A stretch of DNA of 64,000 nt from Halobacteriales archaeon QS_4_69_225 (GTDB lineage Archaea > Halobacteriota > Halobacteria > Halobacteriales > Haloarculaceae). The notes beneath the pieces were generated by a model. That model had not been told where the DNA came from. It saw nothing but the letters and a program-made list of their open reading frames with translations, and searched no databases. Below are positions 3,021-64,000 of this stretch, piece after piece. The first letter of the stretch is position 1; each line of letters starts with the position of its first letter. The stretch is taken from NCBI GenBank assembly GCA_003020965.1, contig PXRL01000008.1:232760-296759 (forward strand), given 5' to 3'. The translations under genes and the position numbers were made by a program.

Positions 3021-3780
3021 TCAGGGCCCTGGGTCGCGAACGGGAATGAGCCCCTTGGCCATGAGGCGGCGGGCGATCACGACGAGTCCGTTCCCGAACC
3101 CCTCGCCGAAGATCGCCTGTTCGGATTTCGACTCGGGCATGATCGAACTCACCAGGATCGACCCGCGGTCGACCAGCAGAAGCCGGCCGATCGCCGTGTC
3201 GTAACGTCGTGGCGGCCGGGACAGCCGCCTGTACGTCCTCCTGTAGCGACGGCGTCAACGTGCCGACGATTACTTCGATGTCGTCCTCGACTCCGTTGAG
3301 CGTCTCGACGAAGCCCGCCGTCAACAGCGACTCGTCGCCGAGGACGAGCACGATCTCGTCCGTCGCCTTCTCGATGAGCTTCTCCGTCCGGTTTTCTATC
3401 GCGTCCCGACCGTTCATCGACCACACCTCCTGAACCGAGGACTCGTAGTCTTCGTCCGCGATCGGGACCGATTCGAGGGCCTTCTGAAAGCGATCGACGC
3501 GGTTCTCGTACTGGTCGCGGAGCGTCTCGGTCGCTTCCTCCAGCGAGACCGCACGAAACTGCTGGGGGCTCGAGTGTTGAACCTCGACCAGCCCCTGGGC
3601 CTCGAGAACCCGTATCGCATCGTAAATCCGGGTCCGGGGGACCTCCGTCAGGTCGCTGAGTTTCTTGGCAGTACCCATGTTGACGCGTGTCAACCCGACG
3701 AAACACCGGGCTTCGTACTCCTTCAGCCCGAGCTGTTGGAGTACTTCGACTGCCTCGTCCACGTTTGCCTCTGTGTCCAT
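3021..3780 (-). pseudogene. TrmB-family transcriptional regulator, frameshifted by a short deletion
   Basis: An N-terminal winged helix of the TrmB type (residues about 10-80, VNMGTAKKLSDLTEVPRTR), a short coiled linker, then the phospholipase-D-like ligand domain. After PAATT (about 3200) the frame breaks and resumes as DTAIGRLLLVD, then SKSEQAIFGEGFGNGLVV, ending at the TGA at 3021-3023. Its paralogue at 4195-4992 has eight more residues at this point, so roughly 20 bases were lost. The DNA-binding half is intact and might still be made. It is divergent from the paralogue, and the shared intergenic region carries promoter elements and a 20-base tandem repeat. The regulated genes are unknown. 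Confidence 0.75.
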
Positions 3781-3784
3781 ATTG

Positions 3785-3824
3785 TGTTCTGATCTTCCGA
3801 GTTATGTTCTGACTTTTCGGAGTG
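3785..3824 (-). promoter_or_regulatory. Two 20-base imperfect direct repeats upstream of the TrmB pseudogene
   Basis: TGTTCTGATCTTCCGAGTTA (3785-3804) is followed at once by TGTTCTGACTTTTCGGAGTG (3805-3824). The exact 20-base period, two helical turns, suits an operator bound by a dimer on one DNA face. A TATA-like CTTTAATA on the minus strand (about 3850-3857) lies just upstream, so the repeat sits at the expected transcription start of the minus-strand regulator. Autoregulation by one of the two TrmB proteins is an inference. Confidence 0.4.
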
Positions 3825-4194
3825 TCGTATGACTGTATTTACAGCTAAAGATATTAAAGATACATAGGTACTGTCATCCTCAGTATAACTGACCGGAGGC
3901 TTAAACTTACCGGTCGCCGGTCAAAGGAGTGCGAACGGGTGATCTCCCCGCGTTCGCTGCTACCAGTGTAACGATTTCAGTTACAGTATGGGTTTCGGCG
4001 GCCTCGTATCGTACATGCCGTCTGAGGGCCGAGAAAGCTCTGTAACTCGTTTAATCACGAAAGATATATCCGGAGAAACATCCGATATTCGAACCGACGC
4101 GTGGTCCAGTTCAGCATGCCGAATACTGCACCGCCGCACACCGGCCCGGCCGGACGATCCGGCCGGGTCGTTCGACCGGAGGTGGCCCGGTGCG

Positions 4195-4992
4195 ATGAGT
4201 GACGACCCGTTCGAGGACGCACGTTCCGTCGCGGTCGAACAGCTCGAACGGTTCGGGTTGAGTGCCTACGCCGCGCGGACGTTCGTCGCACTTGCAGCTC
4301 ACGGATCGGGAACGGCACGGAAGGTGAGCCAGGTGTCGGAGGTCCCACGGACCCAGGTGTACAATGCGGTCGAGGAACTGCACGAGCACGGGCTCGTCCA
4401 TATCCAGCACGCCTCGCCCAAACGATTCTGGGCGATCTCTTCCGAGACGGCGAGCCGAACGTTCCAACACGAACTCCGGCGCCGCACGGAGATACTGCGG
4501 ACCGCGCTGGAGGAGATCGAACCGCCCAAACCGCAGGCGGAACAGCGCGGCGTCTGGACGGTCGACGGACAGGCGGCCATCACGAACCGTGTGCTGGAGT
4601 TCTTCGCCGACGCGGGCGACGAAATCGTCTACATGACCGTCGGTGACCTCCTGACCGACGAGATCATCGAGGCACTGGGGGAGGCAGCGGAGCGGGGTGT
4701 CTCGGTCCGACTCGGCGGCGTCTCACAGGACGTCCAGGACCGCATACAGGACGAGATTCCCGGCGCGACGATGTTCGAGTCGCTGTGGATGTGGTCGGAT
4801 ACGGCGGCCGGCCGGCTCATGATGGTGGACGGTCAGAAGACGCTCGTGAGCGCGCTCGTCAACGGGGCGGAGGCGAGCCCGTCCGACCCGCGGTCGGAGA
4901 CCGCAATCTGGGGCCAGGGCAACACGAACAGTCTGGTCGTGATCCTGAGGGCGATCTTCACCTGGCGGCTCGATACCGCCGAGTCGGAATGA
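4195..4992 (+). CDS. TrmB-family transcriptional regulator
   Basis: A 265-residue regulator with an N-terminal winged helix (about residues 12-80, with SQVSEVPRTQVYNAVEEL as recognition region), a helical linker, and a C-terminal PLD-like TrmB sensing domain (about 110-255). TrmB proteins sense sugars or other small ligands, and nothing here identifies the ligand. ATG 4195 is preferred over farther upstream starts because GGAGGT lies at 4178-4183. It is the intact paralogue of the divergent pseudogene 415 bases away; the two share the PRTxxY recognition helix and the (I/A)WGQG or FGEG motif near the C-terminus. Its TGA is the first codon of structured element B. Confidence 0.8.
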   Translation: MSDDPFEDARSVAVEQLERFGLSAYAARTFVALAAHGSGTARKVSQVSEVPRTQVYNAVEELHEHGLVHIQHASPKRFWAISSETASRTFQHELRRRTEILRTALEEIEPPKPQAEQRGVWTVDGQAAITNRVLEFFADAGDEIVYMTVGDLLTDEIIEALGEAAERGVSVRLGGVSQDVQDRIQDEIPGATMFESLWMWSDTAAGRLMMVDGQKTLVSALVNGAEASPSDPRSETAIWGQGNTNSLVVILRAIFTWRLDTAESE

Positions 4993-34212: not shown

Positions 34213-34929
34213 CGGTTCGACGGAGTCCGGCCGAGGTCCGTGTGCCTGACCGTCGCTGGTCGGGGACAAGCGTGATGTCGTGGCATTACTTTACGACGAG
34301 TTACATATCCGGATAGTATAAACCTCAGGATACGGGCATTCCCGCGACCGCCGTGCGGCCCGGTTACGAGGAAGTAGCGTGCCTCGACGGCGATGACGAC
34401 CCGTCCGAACGCCCCCTCCCGCTCGCGGGCCGTGGCTCACGGGTCGCTTCGCTCGCGGCTCCCCCGCGGTCGCCTCCGAGTAGCGGACGAACTCCACGAG
34501 AATGGATAGCGAACTGGCGAGGAACTGCACCGTCCTGAGCGCCGCGGCGTCGAACCGTTTCGACAGCGCCGCGAATGTCCCGCGCGTCTAGCTCACGACC
34601 GCCCCGCCTCCGCCCGTCGCGTGTCTATTATCTTTCCCCTACGACGGTAGCCCGCTCAACTTTCCGCCGGCCATCGCGGCCGCGTTCAAGTCGCCCGCGG
34701 CTCCCCGGTACAGTCCGGGGTTTCAGCTACAAGATGATACGTCGCGCCTACACCGGATATACGGCCCATTAGAGGGGTCATAATGTCTGCCGCGCGTCTT
34801 GCGGGCGTTCAATGCCGTTTTGAGCACTATCAGCAGCTCTAAGGCGATCATCCTGATATTAGCGGTCTGGTAACACCTCTTAAATCTTAGGATAATTTTA
34901 ATTACCGTGCCCACCTGTGTCAGGTTGTC
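34213..34929. other. Gene-free region with a degenerate R1 copy and an AT-rich promoter
   Basis: About 700 bases. 34368-34480 is an R1 copy (GAGGAAGTAGCGTGCCTCGA, then CCGTCCGAACGCCCCCTCC), its tail eroded. The middle (34500-34780) is featureless. The right end is AT-rich and has GATAATTTTAATTACC about 30 bases before the small gene at 34930, a likely promoter. Confidence 0.45.
34368..34480 (+). repeat. R1 element, partial copy
   Basis: The head and the CTCGCGGGCCGTGGCTCACG segment match the 24.9 kb copy; the long palindromic core and the conserved tail are missing. Confidence 0.5.
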
Positions 34930-35061
34930 ATGTCCGACGACAACAAAGCTGTTGCGTGGTTGGCAGAGCACCCCAAGATGACCGGCGTCATGTTCACGAT
35001 GCTGCTGTTGCTGTCGCAGGCTGGAAGTGCGGTGGCGGGTCGTGGCGCGGCGGGTCCGTAA
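34930..35061 (+). CDS. 43-residue hydrophobic peptide, DUF7503-like
   Basis: ATG 34930 to TAA 35059-35061. A charged start (MSDDNKAVAWLAEHPKMTGV) is followed by one hydrophobic helix (MFTMLLLLSQAGSAVAG) and a short RGAAGP tail. It matches my memory of small haloarchaeal DUF7503 proteins (WLAEHP...LSQAG pattern). It has its own AT-rich TATA-like promoter at about 34893-34903, and is convergent with the CHAT protease gene 57 bases away. Function unknown; the pairing suggests a link with the protease. Confidence 0.6.
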   Translation: MSDDNKAVAWLAEHPKMTGVMFTMLLLLSQAGSAVAGRGAAGP

Positions 35062-35118
35062 CACTACGAAATATTTAGACGTACCGCTGAGCGCACGACG
35101 CTCAGCCAGGGTATGAAC

Positions 35119-37246
35119 TCAGTTCTGGAGAGCTTCGCAGATTTCGGCTACCGAAACATCTCTGGGCCAATAGAACTCTCCTGCTGCAATTATCGGCATC
35201 TGCTTGTAATCGATATAGTTTGAAAGAACTGTTTCGTCACTAATCCATGGACCGAACTTGCCAGGAACAATAAACCGGCGATTGACGCCGTCGAGATACG
35301 GCGTAAGCATCGATCCCGCGCCGTAGTTCCAGCTGGCAAACGTCTCGACGGTGAGTTCGAGTTTCTCATCATCATGTCCTCTGACTTTCAAAACCTCGGG
35401 TGTCCCGCCCGTGGTCTGCGCTACTGCCGCGTTCGAGTCCCCGACGACCGCGTAGTGTTCGCCCGAGAACATCGTGTCCTGGATGAGATTCGTCGCAGCT
35501 CCGACCGGGAACCCGTAGTTGAGTAGCCGGGCGATGGTCCGACCGATCTTCGTCGCCATCGAACTGATAACGTCCTTCAGGGTGACGACCCCTGCAATGG
35601 CACCGTTACTGACTAGCCGCTGGCCCTGTTCGTACGAGGAGCAGGCGTTGAGGACGAACGCGTCCGCGCCGACATCGCCGATTTGACCCGCATCGAGGTG
35701 GCCGTCCGCACAGTCGAACCCCTCCGGGTCGACGTGGCCGATGTAGTGGACGAAGTCGGTGTCGCGCTCGAACACCTCGGCGAGTTCGGCGGTGGTAAGT
35801 TTTCGCTGGAGGCTGATGTCGAAATCCAGGTGGTCCCGCGTGCCGTAGATATCCGACACGTCGGCCTCCTCGGCCATCTCTGCGTCATTGACGACGACGT
35901 CGATGCTGATGCGGGAGTCGCCCTCGGCGCGTTTTTCGAGCCGCTGGAGGTAGGAGTTCGTGGTCGCCTTCGCGGCACCGACCGCGAAGCCGTCGCCGAC
36001 CCACGCCTGAGACATGCTCTCGGCCTCCGGTAGGTCGAGAACGCGCTCGCGACTCACATCATCCGTAACTGGTTCCGAGGACGACGAAGACCGCGTGAGC
36101 GCGCTGTCAGCCGCCCCTGCCTCCGATATCGAGTCTCCTGCCGATTTCGACCGAGTGAAGACGTTTTGCTTCGTCGCTTCCCGTGTCGCATTTGCGATGA
36201 CTGATTCCGATGGGCACCGAACGACGGCGAGGTCGCGGGCGAGGAACGGCGTCGTCGTCGCTCGTCGCGGCTCCGCTTCCACATCGGCGGTGAGCCGCCA
36301 GTCCGGTCGGCCGATTTTCTCCTCGAGACTCTCGAACGATTCGTCCAACTCGAGGTAGGCCCGCGTTCTGTCGGCCAGCGACGCCTCGGCCAGGCGGTCG
36401 AGGTCCAGCGAGAGCCCGGCATCCTCGATGCGCCGCTCGATGTCCAGTTCGACGTCGTAGAACTGCCGAACCGCACAGTCGAACTGGAACGTGAACTGCA
36501 GGACGTCCCGGCAGCGCCGGCTCGCCGGGCTCGACGGTCGCGCCGAGCCAGTACGCGAGCGGGACGGCCGGATAGAGCCACTCGTGGGCCGCCGGCACCG
36601 TGAGCCGAATCCCGTTGTCCGGCGGTGTGGCGCCGCCCGGCAGGGCGGGTTCGTCGGTCAGCTCGAGTAACGGGGGATGGCCTCGAAGCGTCGGGAACGT
36701 CCGTTCGGCCGACCACGTCTTTATCGCGTTCCCGAACAACGAGACGGCATCCATCAGGTCGCGCGGGTCGCTCGTGGTCATCAGCGTCCGGCCGGGCTGG
36801 GAGTGAAACGACCGCGCGCCGACGCGGATTTTGGTGTCGGGGCCGAAGAGCAGGTCGACCGACTCCTCGCCCGGGATAACGTGAAAGCCGCCGTCAACCC
36901 GAGCGTACAGTTTCATCGGGAGGCTGTTAAACTCCAGCGTGTAGCTCCCCGCTGGAATCTCCGTTCTCCCCTCCTTCGGGTCACACTCCGCGACGACGTT
37001 CCCATCGAGGTCCCGGACCCAGATGTTCAGCAGAAACGGCGTCCGGAGCCGCGTCGCCGTCACCTCGACGGCGCTGTCGACGGGGTAGACGAAGCCCCCT
37101 GTCGAGGCGGGCGTCGGGTCGACCGGACCGTCGGTGAACAGCTGCGTCCGGACGTCCTCGATGGGGTCTCGGACGTGGAGCCCCGCACGTCCGAACGCCG
37201 AGTCGAAGCGCGGGACGATGCTGTCGGCGCCCGAACCGTCACTCAT
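35119..37246 (-). pseudogene. CHAT-domain caspase-like protease with novel N-terminal domain, frameshifted
   Basis: About 700 residues over two frames. The N-terminal half (beta-rich, about 1-240, e.g. GGFVYPVDSAVEVTATRLR and GSYTLEFNSLPMKLYARVDG) is in one frame; near 36510 it shifts at VEPGEPA and continues as RDVLQFTFQFDCAVRQFYDV. The C-terminal half is a CHAT peptidase: catalytic His in FVHYIGHVDPEGFDC and Cys in AFVLNACSSYEQGQRLV. A one-base indel explains the break; no residues seem lost. ATG 37246 has a strong Shine-Dalgarno (GGAGG on the minus strand, about 37255). CHAT proteases act in regulated proteolysis and defence. The neighbour is a 43-residue hydrophobic peptide. Confidence 0.75.
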
Positions 37247-61289: not shown

Positions 61290-61550
61290 CGGCCGATGGG
61301 CCGGGAGCTCGAACGAAGCCGACCGCTCGCGGGCTGCGTCTCGCCGTCTCCGGCAATCAGCGATTACCGAGATGACGAACGACGGTTCGCGTATCGTCGT
61401 TCCTCCCGCTCGCTGTTTCACGAGGCCGCTCTCGCTGCGCTCGCCCGGCCTCGCTACGCGCGGCCTGCGTGCGTGTGTCGACCCGCTTTAGCAGCAGGAG
61501 AAAAAAGGAGACGTTCGGACACGCCGTCATCACAGCCGAGACACGCTACC
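61290..61550 (-). repeat. R1 element, inverted copy
   Basis: On the minus strand the head reads GTAGCGTGTCTCGGCTGTGA, then GACGGCGTGTCCGAACGTC, and the tail GCGAGCGGTCGGCTTCGTT with GAGCTCCCGGCCCATCGGCC. The core keeps palindromic GAGCGCAGCGAGAG-type units. The remaining parts of 61099-61289 show no gene. Confidence 0.55.
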
Positions 61551-61574
61551 CCTTGTATTTGGAACACCACCAAC

Positions 61575-61697
61575 TCAGGCGCCCGAGCCGACGTGTTCGT
61601 CGAGGAACTCGACGATCTCGCGGTAGGCCTCGATCCGGTTGTCGAGTTTCGAGATGCCGTGGCCTTCGTCGTCGAAGATTCGCTTCCGGATGGGAGC
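61575..61697 (-). pseudogene. Displaced 3' end of the S9 peptidase gene
   Basis: 40 codons reading APIRKRIFDDEGHGISKLDN-RIEAYREIVEFLDEHVGSGA and a TGA. It matches the end of the peptidase at 63105-64000 (VPVRKLIFDDEGHGISKLDN). Bases 61609-61679 and 63133-63203 differ at one position of 71, wobble bases included, while the flanks diverge. Either the left boundary of an integrated island or the last piece of a second peptidase gene. Confidence 0.75.
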
Positions 61698-61898
61698 ATC
61701 CTATTCGGTGGCCCGCTCAGTGATTTATCCGGCCTTGCCGGCAGAAGCTGGAAATCATAGCAATGTTTAAATAATAAAAAGCACCGATCCAGCTAATATC
61801 AGTCACCGACAAAGGAGTTCATTAACTGGTGAATAGTCGGGAAATCAATTTTAGAAAGTAGCAGAATGTTTATTAATTGCTCCCCTAACATAATCCGT

Positions 61899-62366
61899 AT
61901 GAATGGCTCAAAGCCAGTAAAAGTAGCCGTAGGAGTTAGCCTGCTTGGTGTCTTTGGTTCCCTAGTATTTAGTTCATTACTCGTATTACTACCTCGTTTT
62001 ATGAATTTAACATCTTCGTATATGTATGCGGACATGATCGGACGTCTTGTAGTATTTGCTGATGGAGCTTGGATCGTTATTGTTATTCCAAGTGTAAGTT
62101 CGGTACTGTCTTACATTTACATCTTAAAAGGTTTCAATAAGTTGAGTGTTGTTACTGGATTTACCTTGTGCGGGCTCATTCTTTCGATCGGTAACTTCTT
62201 AGTCGGGATTTCAATCAGATATATCACGTCACCAACTATGCCGGAGAATTATAACCTGTATTCGATGATTTTTATAGGAATAATCGTTGTTTGTGGAAGC
62301 ATAGCCGGAATTCTTTTAGGAATGCTCACCGACGAATCCCCCAAGAGACACTCCACAGCGAATTAA
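61899..62366 (+). CDS. Four-helix membrane protein of the AT-rich island
   Basis: 155 residues from ATG 61899, codon use strikingly AT-rich compared with the rest of the window. Four predicted helices at about 9-33 (VAVGVSLLGVFGSLVFSSLL), 48-71, 80-103 and 119-142 (MIFIGIIVVCGSIAGILLG), with short loops and a charged cytoplasmic-looking tail ESPKRHSTAN. A TATA-like TTTAAATA lies at 61766-61773. It is 55 bases upstream of the Cys-rich precursor on the same strand, suggesting an export or immunity partner. No family recognised; acquired by transfer. Confidence 0.6.
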   Translation: MNGSKPVKVAVGVSLLGVFGSLVFSSLLVLLPRFMNLTSSYMYADMIGRLVVFADGAWIVIVIPSVSSVLSYIYILKGFNKLSVVTGFTLCGLILSIGNFLVGISIRYITSPTMPENYNLYSMIFIGIIVVCGSIAGILLGMLTDESPKRHSTAN

Positions 62367-62421
62367 ATTTGGTGATTTCGACCAAAAGTTTAATACATAG
62401 TGTACTAAGGAAGCCAGTATA

Positions 62422-63079
62422 ATGAAGCGTCTTGATAGAAGAGATATACTAAAGTCGGTCGGTGCCACATCAACTTTGGCAACTGCGATTGGAAGTGCTG
62501 CCGCCCAGGAAAGTAGTGAATTAAACGACCTTCATTTCAACTTAGATGAAGCGAGGAGAAAGGCAACGGTCGAAAATGCTAAACATGTCTTCACAACGGT
62601 AGGACAGGGCTTACTAAATACGCTCCGAGATTCTGGATTTATTGAGGCTGCGACCTTTGAGGCCCTTAATATAGAATCAGTAAAAATCCATAAGGGGAAT
62701 TTATCGAATAATTTTATCGTCGTTCACTCCGGAGTATATGATGATAATCATGAAATAGTTTATAAGACTCATAACGAATGCCCGATTCGATAGTCCGATA
62801 CTTGTAACCGTTAGAGAATTTACGGAGAAAGCTGGAGCCACTGCGAACCTGAATGGAGAATCCTACGCACTCACAGAAGAGTACGGAGAATTTATTCATG
62901 TTTCGAATAGGCCCCGTACAGTTGGTTGTGGGTGTACGAACGCGCCCGAGTGTTGCAATGAATGTAAATGTCCAGAATATACATACGAGGCAAAAGAATA
63001 CTGTAGTGATGGTACAGAATACCATTGTGGAACCTGCCGGTTAGAGTGTTCTCCTTGTGAAACGTACTGGCCTTGTTAA
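62422..63079 (+). pseudogene. Tat-exported precursor with 12-cysteine C-terminal domain (halocin-like?), read across a +1 frameshift
   Basis: The first frame (62422-62793) gives a Tat signal, RRDILKSVGATSTLATAIGS ending AAAQ, then an acidic spacer. Its TAG falls at 62791. A second frame, open from 62759 to the TAA at 63077, continues NARFDSPILVTVREFTEKAG and ends in a domain with 12 Cys in about 52 residues: GCGCTNAPECCNECKCPEY, YCSDGTEYHCGTCRLECSPC and YWPC. Joining them needs one extra base, for example at CGA-TAG (62788-62793). TATA-like TTTAATAC at about 62389 gives a leaderless start. Layout (Tat signal, long pro-region, compact Cys-rich end) resembles halocin C8-type precursors, but no sequence match is claimed. 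Codon use is AT-rich, so foreign. Confidence 0.55.
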
Positions 63080-63104
63080 CGACAGCTGAGAACGAAACAC
63101 GACC

Positions 63105-64000
63105 CTACTCTTTCAGGTATTCATCCAGAAAGTCGACGATCTCGCGGTAGGCCTCGATGCGGTTGTCGAGTTTCGAGATGCCGTGGCCTTCGTCGTCGAA
63201 GATCAGTTTTCGGACGGGGACGCCCTGTTCGGCCGCCGCCGCGGCGACCTGTTCGGCCTCGTCGACCGGCACCCGCGGGTCATTGGCGCCGTGCAGGACG
63301 AACAGCGGCGCCTCGATGCTGTCGATGTTGTTGACCGGCGAGACCGACTCGAGGAACTCCCGATCGTCCTCGAGGGAGCCGTACTCGGCCTCTCGGAGCT
63401 CCCGGCGCCAGGAGCCGGTGTTTTCGAGGAACGTCACGAAGTTGGCGATGCCGACGACGTCGACGCCGGCGGCCCACAGCTCGGGGTACTCGGTGAGCGC
63501 CGCCAGCACCATGAACCCGCCGTAGGAGCCGCCCTTGGCGACGATCCGGTCGGAATCGACCTCCGGGCGGTCGGTCAGCCACCCGACGGCGGCCTCCAGG
63601 TCGGCCACCGAGTCCATCCGCCGCTCGACGTCGTCCAGGTGGGTGTAGGCTCGGCCGTAGCCGGTCGATCCCCGGACGTTCGGCTCGAAGACCGCGTAAC
63701 CGTGCGCCAGGAGGTACTGCTTGACCGGCGAGAAGGAGGGCCGCCGCTGGCTCTCGGGGCCGCCGTGGATGTCGACGACGACCGGCGTCTCGCCGTCGGG
63801 CGCCTCCGGCGGCGTCGCGTAGTAGCCCGGTATCTCGCGGCCGTCGAACGTCTCGTAGGCCACGGACTCCGAGGCGACGAACGTCTCCAGCGGGATGCCG
63901 GCCGTCGAGGCGCAGGTCCACCGCTCGGCGGCGCCGGTCTCGACGTCGACGACGTAGACGTCGGTGTTTTCGGTGTCGGCGGTGACCGTCAGGGCGAACC
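63105..64000 (-). CDS. S9 family peptidase (prolyl oligopeptidase-like), C-terminal part; 5' end beyond the window
   Basis: At least 298 residues. The visible alpha/beta-hydrolase domain has the HGGPESQRRPSF oxyanion region, nucleophile Ser in KGGSYGGFMVLAAL, Asp in GANDPRVPVDEAE and His in DDEGHGISKL. Upstream there is beta-propeller-like sequence (TDVYVVDVETGAAERW). Cleaves peptides after Pro or blocked N-termini. The stop at 63105-63107 lies at the edge of the AT-rich island, and a diverged copy of the last 40 codons is at 61575. Confidence 0.88.
   Translation of the reverse strand, partial: FALTVTADTENTDVYVVDVETGAAERWTCASTAGIPLETFVASESVAYETFDGREIPGYYATPPEAPDGETPVVVDIHGGPESQRRPSFSPVKQYLLAHGYAVFEPNVRGSTGYGRAYTHLDDVERRMDSVADLEAAVGWLTDRPEVDSDRIVAKGGSYGGFMVLAALTEYPELWAAGVDVVGIANFVTFLENTGSWRRELREAEYGSLEDDREFLESVSPVNNIDSIEAPLFVLHGANDPRVPVDEAEQVAAAAAEQGVPVRKLIFDDEGHGISKLDNRIEAYREIVDFLDEYLKE

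Follow-up and report, generated by a model that had tools for sequence, protein, structure and literature searches.

A haloarchaeal family of Tat-type precursors with hypervariable cysteine-rich ends, a putatively tryptophan-prenylated subset, and a probably decaying copy on an insertion element

Introduction

Close to the end of the window, the whole 64,000-nucleotide stretch of haloarchaeal DNA that was analysed, an AT-rich tract carries a gene for a small membrane protein followed on the same strand by a gene, split over two frames, whose product would be a Tat-exported protein ending in a dense cluster of cysteines. What kind of peptide does this gene encode, does the membrane protein belong with it, and how did the two come to lie together here? 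An earlier note on this DNA had proposed an unassigned microhalocin-like or signalling-peptide system in which the membrane protein provides immunity or export. Little is known of the peptides that archaea secrete and, of the cysteine-rich types, only halocin C8 was found modelled in the family libraries.

Results

The island is inserted at the 3′ end of a peptidase gene

As the earlier note had described, the sequence turns abruptly AT-rich: the GC content falls from 0.69 to 0.38–0.42 across the tract and then returns to 0.70. What that note had missed is a direct repeat of 148 bp, with copies that are 80% identical, which flanks the island and corresponds to the 3′ end of an S9 peptidase gene (Table 1). 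In two genomes, G392 and G396, the second of which is the nearest same-genus genome searched and is 96% identical over the peptidase DNA stretch, an acyl-CoA synthetase gene lies directly after the end of the peptidase gene and the island is absent. The flanks of the island in the window, 61502–61713 on the left and 63117–63300 on the right, map to overlapping stretches of this empty site. In the alignment the outer part of the left repeat matches the empty-site genome and runs on into the original flank, the inner part being diverged, and the changed end of the gene is found in the right copy. Such an arrangement, with the original flank at the left copy and a changed end in the right one, is commonly left by elements that recombine with the 3′ end of a gene and restore the gene with a copy of their own. 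The island is a small inserted element that sits at the 3′ end of the peptidase gene and contains no integrase.

Table 1. Features of the insertion locus, in window coordinates.
Feature	Position	Strand	Remarks
Left direct repeat: displaced, diverged copy of the S9 peptidase gene 3′ end	61593–61740	−	
AT-rich inserted island, GC 0.38–0.42	61745–63100 (approximate)	.	Empty site in G396 and G392
Four-helix membrane protein, 155 aa	61899–62366	+	Four strongly hydrophobic segments
Precursor, first frame: 123 aa with Tat-type signal and pro-domain, stop TAG	62422–62793	+	
Zone of the shift from frame 1 to frame 2	62760–62795	+	Relatives in G321 and G208 read straight through
Precursor, second frame: remaining pro-domain and 12-Cys C-terminal domain ending CETYWPC	~62760/62780–63079	+	
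Right direct repeat: 3′ end of the present S9 peptidase gene	63117–63264	−	

The peptidase 3′ end looks like an insertion hotspot in the window's genus. In G389 and G397 the four-helix gene, 58–62% identical, is found at the same site without the precursor; approximately 22 nucleotides resembling the last codons of the precursor may remain there, a stretch not long enough to tell loss of the precursor from gain. At L077:4980–5784 and L210, in two genomes other than that of the window, the same peptidase end holds a membrane gene and a second peptidase remnant. Elsewhere in the window milder dips in GC content, to 0.52–0.55, are seen at 3501–4250 and 34751–35500.

A viral or plasmid origin was considered and rejected. 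Neither the four-helix protein nor the enzyme described below has relatives among the viral contigs, nor do the enzyme and the precursor of G321 have any among the plasmids; the precursor profile itself is too divergent for a scan of viral contigs, and comparison with PHROG gave nothing useful.

The window precursor is broken by a single frameshift

The first frame of the precursor begins at 62422 with the Tat-type start MKRLDRRDILKSVGATSTLATAIGSAAAQ, by eye some 30 nt downstream of a TATA-like TTTAATA, and contains, also by eye, an RRDIL motif, a hydrophobic stretch and A-A-A, although against the Pfam TAT_signal model it scores 11.3 bits for a curated cut-off of 22.7. The second frame, of 106 residues, ends in GCGCTNAPECCNECKCPEYTYEAKEYCSDGTEYHCGTCRLECSPCETYWPC, with 12 cysteines within 51 residues; elsewhere in the 64 kb of the window, with all six frames considered, open stretches reach at most nine cysteines per 52 residues. 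Across 100 residues the second frame matches intact proteins from two haloarchaea, G321 and G208, at 36–38% (E values of 1e-4 and 5e-4 per genome). These proteins, of 236 and 235 amino acids, are each encoded in a single frame, have Tat-type signals and 12 cysteines, and are alike along their length; signals of the RRSILRSIG type are found in the relatives of the window precursor. The N-terminal part of the window precursor was also recovered, with an E value of 1.2e-9 among all the window ORFs, by a profile from which the window sequence had been left out. Since intact, full-length, single-frame homologues carry the cysteine-rich end, the second frame is real. The Tat-type precursor with a 12-cysteine end in a second frame, which the earlier note had described, is confirmed. 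Neither of the two findings that the note had named as refuting its proposal was made: the second frame is conserved, and no homologue was found to be an ordinary zinc protein without a signal peptide.

A programmed frameshift was rejected, as the frameshift zone contains no homopolymer or slippery run and the homologues need none, and the shift is either a mutation or an assembly error. On the tree the window precursor groups with those of G321 and G208 (support 0.97), where it has the longest terminal branch (2.0). Structure prediction for the precursor read through the frameshift was uninformative (pLDDT 38).

The precursors form a large family with variable cysteine-rich ends

Profile searches found relatives of the precursor in 53 of 391 genomes of the class, spread over 25 genera, and approximately 80 precursors were read. 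Their common plan is a Tat-type signal, then a conserved pro-domain with some 110–130 residues and last a short, hypervariable, cysteine-rich C-terminal peptide: while the pro-domain is conserved, the last 30–70 residues vary in the number of cysteines (mostly 8–16, with up to 22), in their spacing and in the loops between them. The window protein matches this family over both the pro-domain and the cysteine-rich end, and its placement on the tree agrees. No Pfam or NCBIfam family covers the 21 members tested, the precursor profile has no relatives in the PDB, and no description of the family was found in the literature searched, in which few subscription papers were within reach. The precursors are a large, apparently undescribed haloarchaeal family.

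Halocin C8 would be the obvious relative, and membership of that family was tried and rejected. Neither TIGR04449, the halocin C8 domain, nor PF22862, the Hac8-like N-terminal domain, matches the window proteins or the 21 members, and TIGR04449 has no match anywhere in the genome from which the window comes. As controls, HalC8-like proteins retrieved by the same procedure did match TIGR04449, and L038 and L039 match PF22862 at 1e-27 and 1e-24. Comparison of the profile of the precursor family with that of HalC8-type precursors gave a probability of 8% over 26 columns. Of the microhalocin-like precursor suggested earlier, the Tat-type prepro-protein with its compact cysteine-rich C-terminal peptide stands, and the relationship to halocin C8 falls.

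The neighbours of 74 precursor loci were compared. A receptor or immunity gene shared by the whole set was not seen. An ABC ATPase lies near 12 and an ABC-2 permease near nine, genes that are common in bacteriocin loci, the pair being present at only about ten of the 74. Other neighbours are confined to small groups. A family of 384–428 residues with one hydrophobic N-terminal segment directly adjoins the precursor at L149, L153, L169 and L191, at a distance of 0–8 bp in three of the four, and is possibly the dedicated partner of another subset. Proteins of 256–410 residues with two to three hydrophobic segments, which give only a sub-threshold match in Pfam, are found beside six precursors (L051, L159, L163, L164, L167 and L180). 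At L049:5706–7999 three tandem precursors with differing cysteine-rich ends stand beside one gene for the enzyme described next.

A prenyl-synthase-like enzyme lies beside precursors that end in tryptophan

Six of the first precursor loci have in common a neighbour of about 290 residues, this enzyme, and a profile search of the class added a seventh locus (G141). The enzyme is present in 12 of the 391 genomes, counting one marginal partial match (G021, E 1e-7); a scan of the whole collection counted three enzyme loci, two of which had already been seen. No copy was found by profile search in the window genome, the assembly of which is 89% complete. The relatives of the enzyme in the PDB are prenyl diphosphate synthases (E 1.7e-8), and an AlphaFold model of the protein from Haloarchaeobius iranensis (pLDDT 85) has prenyl-synthase folds as its best matches, with Ord1, a tryptophan prenyltransferase, at rank 46. 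By sequence and predicted structure, then, the enzyme has the isoprenoid synthase (trans-prenyl diphosphate synthase) fold. The first Asp-rich motif, DDxxD, is invariant and the second is degenerate and LDxxQ-like. Gln 223, just upstream of the second motif, is also invariant, but it does not discriminate, because a glutamine is common here in ordinary prenyl synthases too.

All nine enzyme-linked precursors, from seven loci, have a tryptophan within their last two residues, compared with four of 71 others (p = 3e-9 by a Fisher test that treats related sequences as independent, in a set collected with profiles that had been started from linked members). Their ends read CSNW, CGW, PGW, GGGGW, NDGW (twice), CGWL, CGWW and VGW. 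On the pro-domain tree the linked precursors are scattered over at least four positions, and close relatives without the enzyme end otherwise; the third precursor of G161, for instance, ends in CGWL, whereas L135 and L136, with which it groups, end in GECV and FECP. Even among unlinked precursors such a tryptophan occurs in three of seven from enzyme-bearing genomes as against one of 64 from elsewhere (p = 0.002, with the same assumption of independence).

From the side of the enzyme, an adjacent peptide with tryptophan at or near its C-terminus was seen at ten of the 13 loci examined. Three further enzyme loci (L098, L099 and L100) have no cysteine-rich precursor, and have other small ORFs that end near a tryptophan. 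At L098:3048–3746 (minus strand, G192) a Tat protein of 232 residues ends in NNSWI; it has few cysteines and a hydrophobic Gly/Ala-rich C-terminal stretch, and is a candidate for another type of exported peptide. The remaining two are ORFs of 34 residues next to the enzyme in Halorhabdus-type genomes, one ending in YAKLAPW (G145; L218:6892–6996, minus strand, which is also L099:3716–3820, plus strand) and the other in YARLGVW (G050; L100:4992–5096, minus strand). These two are homologous to each other and are ComX-like in size and end. At the enzyme loci of G345, L220 and G309 no ORF ending in tryptophan was found; the first two, L220 being a locus from a Haloarcula MAG, make up one clade, and the enzyme of G309 is cut by the end of a contig.

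The precursors of G321 and G208, to which the window protein is most closely related, belong to the enzyme-linked subset. In the window peptide itself the tryptophan is third from the end (YWPC) and the genome lacks the enzyme, so that the peptide in its present form falls outside the prenylation proposal. Given the frameshift, the missing enzyme and the long branch, the window gene is probably an orphan copy that was brought by the island and is now decaying.

The four-helix protein is found without the precursor

Homologues of the four-helix protein were found, without any precursor, in seven genomes: the two same-genus genomes with the gene at the same site, and five others in which the proteins have 148–153 residues and the neighbours are unrelated. 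Conversely, the 74 precursor loci contain no four-helix homologue. In the window a TATA-like TTTATTAA lies, by eye, about 27 nt upstream of the ATG of the four-helix gene. The pairing of the two genes put forward in the earlier note does not hold up in these comparisons and, with it, a role of the membrane protein in immunity or export loses its support. The two are best seen as separate passengers of one island.

Discussion

On balance we favour the view that the family comprises Tat-exported, disulfide-rich, halocin-like peptides, with a subset that is prenylated on tryptophan, of which the window holds a probably decaying orphan copy on an insertion element. The pro-protein would be exported by the Tat pathway, the C-terminal peptide would fold through disulfide bonds and be released by a protease, and outside the cell it would act on related archaea in the manner of a halocin. 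In the subset, the cytoplasmic enzyme of prenyl-synthase fold may prenylate the C-terminal tryptophan ahead of export. We regard as evenly balanced the more specific proposal that PalQ/ComQ-like tryptophan prenylation operates in archaea on both Tat-exported disulfide-rich peptides and 34-residue peptides, yielding lipidated antagonists or pheromones, with the window gene as a relic of this lineage.

Antagonism is preferred to signalling with moderate confidence, because the peptides are hypervariable and rich in cysteine and because about ten of the precursors have an ABC ATPase and an ABC-2 permease nearby. The pairing of enzyme and tryptophan does resemble ComQ/ComX and PalQ/PalX, each of which is encoded with a histidine kinase, and the family could accordingly consist of pheromones, prenylated or plain cysteine-rich, that are sensed by a receptor kinase. 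This seems rather unlikely: no kinase, receptor or response-regulator family recurs in the precursor neighbourhoods when these are clustered, annotation covering part of the neighbours, and the variable cysteine-rich ends and ABC-2 transporters suit antagonism at least equally well. Still less probable is a secreted or surface domain that binds metal, as metallothioneins do, or has a structural role, and does not act on other cells. Spacings such as CxC, CC and CxxC, and the 22 cysteines reached in some members, would fit such a domain, but no metal domain of Pfam or NCBIfam was matched, and cysteine spacing and loop length vary across the family, whereas the pro-domain is conserved; a fixed metal site would not behave in this way.

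As regards the window gene, it may be intact and active, with the frameshift an error of sequencing or assembly; we hold this to be a real but lesser possibility. In its favour are the single indel, with similarity to the relatives on both sides, and the draft state of the assembly, with 28 contigs and 89% completeness; against it, there is no homopolymer at the site, the branch is long and the enzyme is missing from the genome. Very improbable is the original suggestion that the four-helix protein serves the peptide as immunity or export factor. The two genes are adjacent on the same strand with 55 bp between them, but each appears by eye to have its own TATA-like box, and the four-helix gene occurs in seven genomes without the precursor and is absent from the surroundings of the 74 other precursor loci. 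Decay of an orphan copy, carried beside an unrelated passenger, is the simplest reading of the window locus.

In at least 25 haloarchaeal genera an export and pro part is conserved ahead of a fast-changing cysteine-rich end, which is the pattern expected under arms-race or signal-diversity selection. If the association with the enzyme is functional, archaea would prenylate peptides on tryptophan, a modification that in the literature searched, where few subscription papers were within reach, is described for bacteria only, and they would do so in cells with membranes built of isoprenoids. The association also yields a testable rule for the substrate: a terminal tryptophan, mostly in GW.

Among known systems, halocin C8 precursors (TIGR04449, PF22862) are likewise Tat-type haloarchaeal prepro-proteins with a pro-domain and a cysteine-rich C-terminal peptide, but the peptides of the present family are shorter, more polar, more cysteine-dense and hypervariable; by sequence, the likeness is one of architecture and not of membership. 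HFX_0892 (HapP) of Haloferax mediterranei, compared here by its description, is also a secreted precursor that is cleaved outside the cell to give an antagonistic peptide, although its active part is an N-terminal helix and the text of the paper does not mention cysteine (PMC12893001).

For the enzyme the comparison is with bacteria. As in ComQ/ComX of Bacillus (PMC4008528), the first Asp-rich motif is intact, the second is degenerate (in ComQ it is lacking; PMC10853753) and the adjacent peptide has a tryptophan near its C-terminus; this is internal in ComX and last or next to last in the archaeal precursors, beside the enzyme of which no ComP/ComA-like neighbours were noticed. The text of the 2014 census does not mention archaea (PMC4008528). 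PalQ/PalX of Paenibacillus alvei (PMC10853753) differs in having a histidine kinase as neighbour, where none was seen beside the archaeal enzyme, and in its leader peptides of the nitrile hydratase type, in place of which the archaeal substrates would be Tat-exported cysteine-rich proteins or 34-mers. PalQ, which belongs to the same superfamily, needs a tryptophan at the C-terminus, loses activity once the peptide extends past it and works better with a glycine before it (PMC13290415). In both PalQ/PalX and the archaeal loci an enzyme of trans-prenyl-synthase fold lies beside a precursor with a C-terminal tryptophan, and in both GW is a common end.
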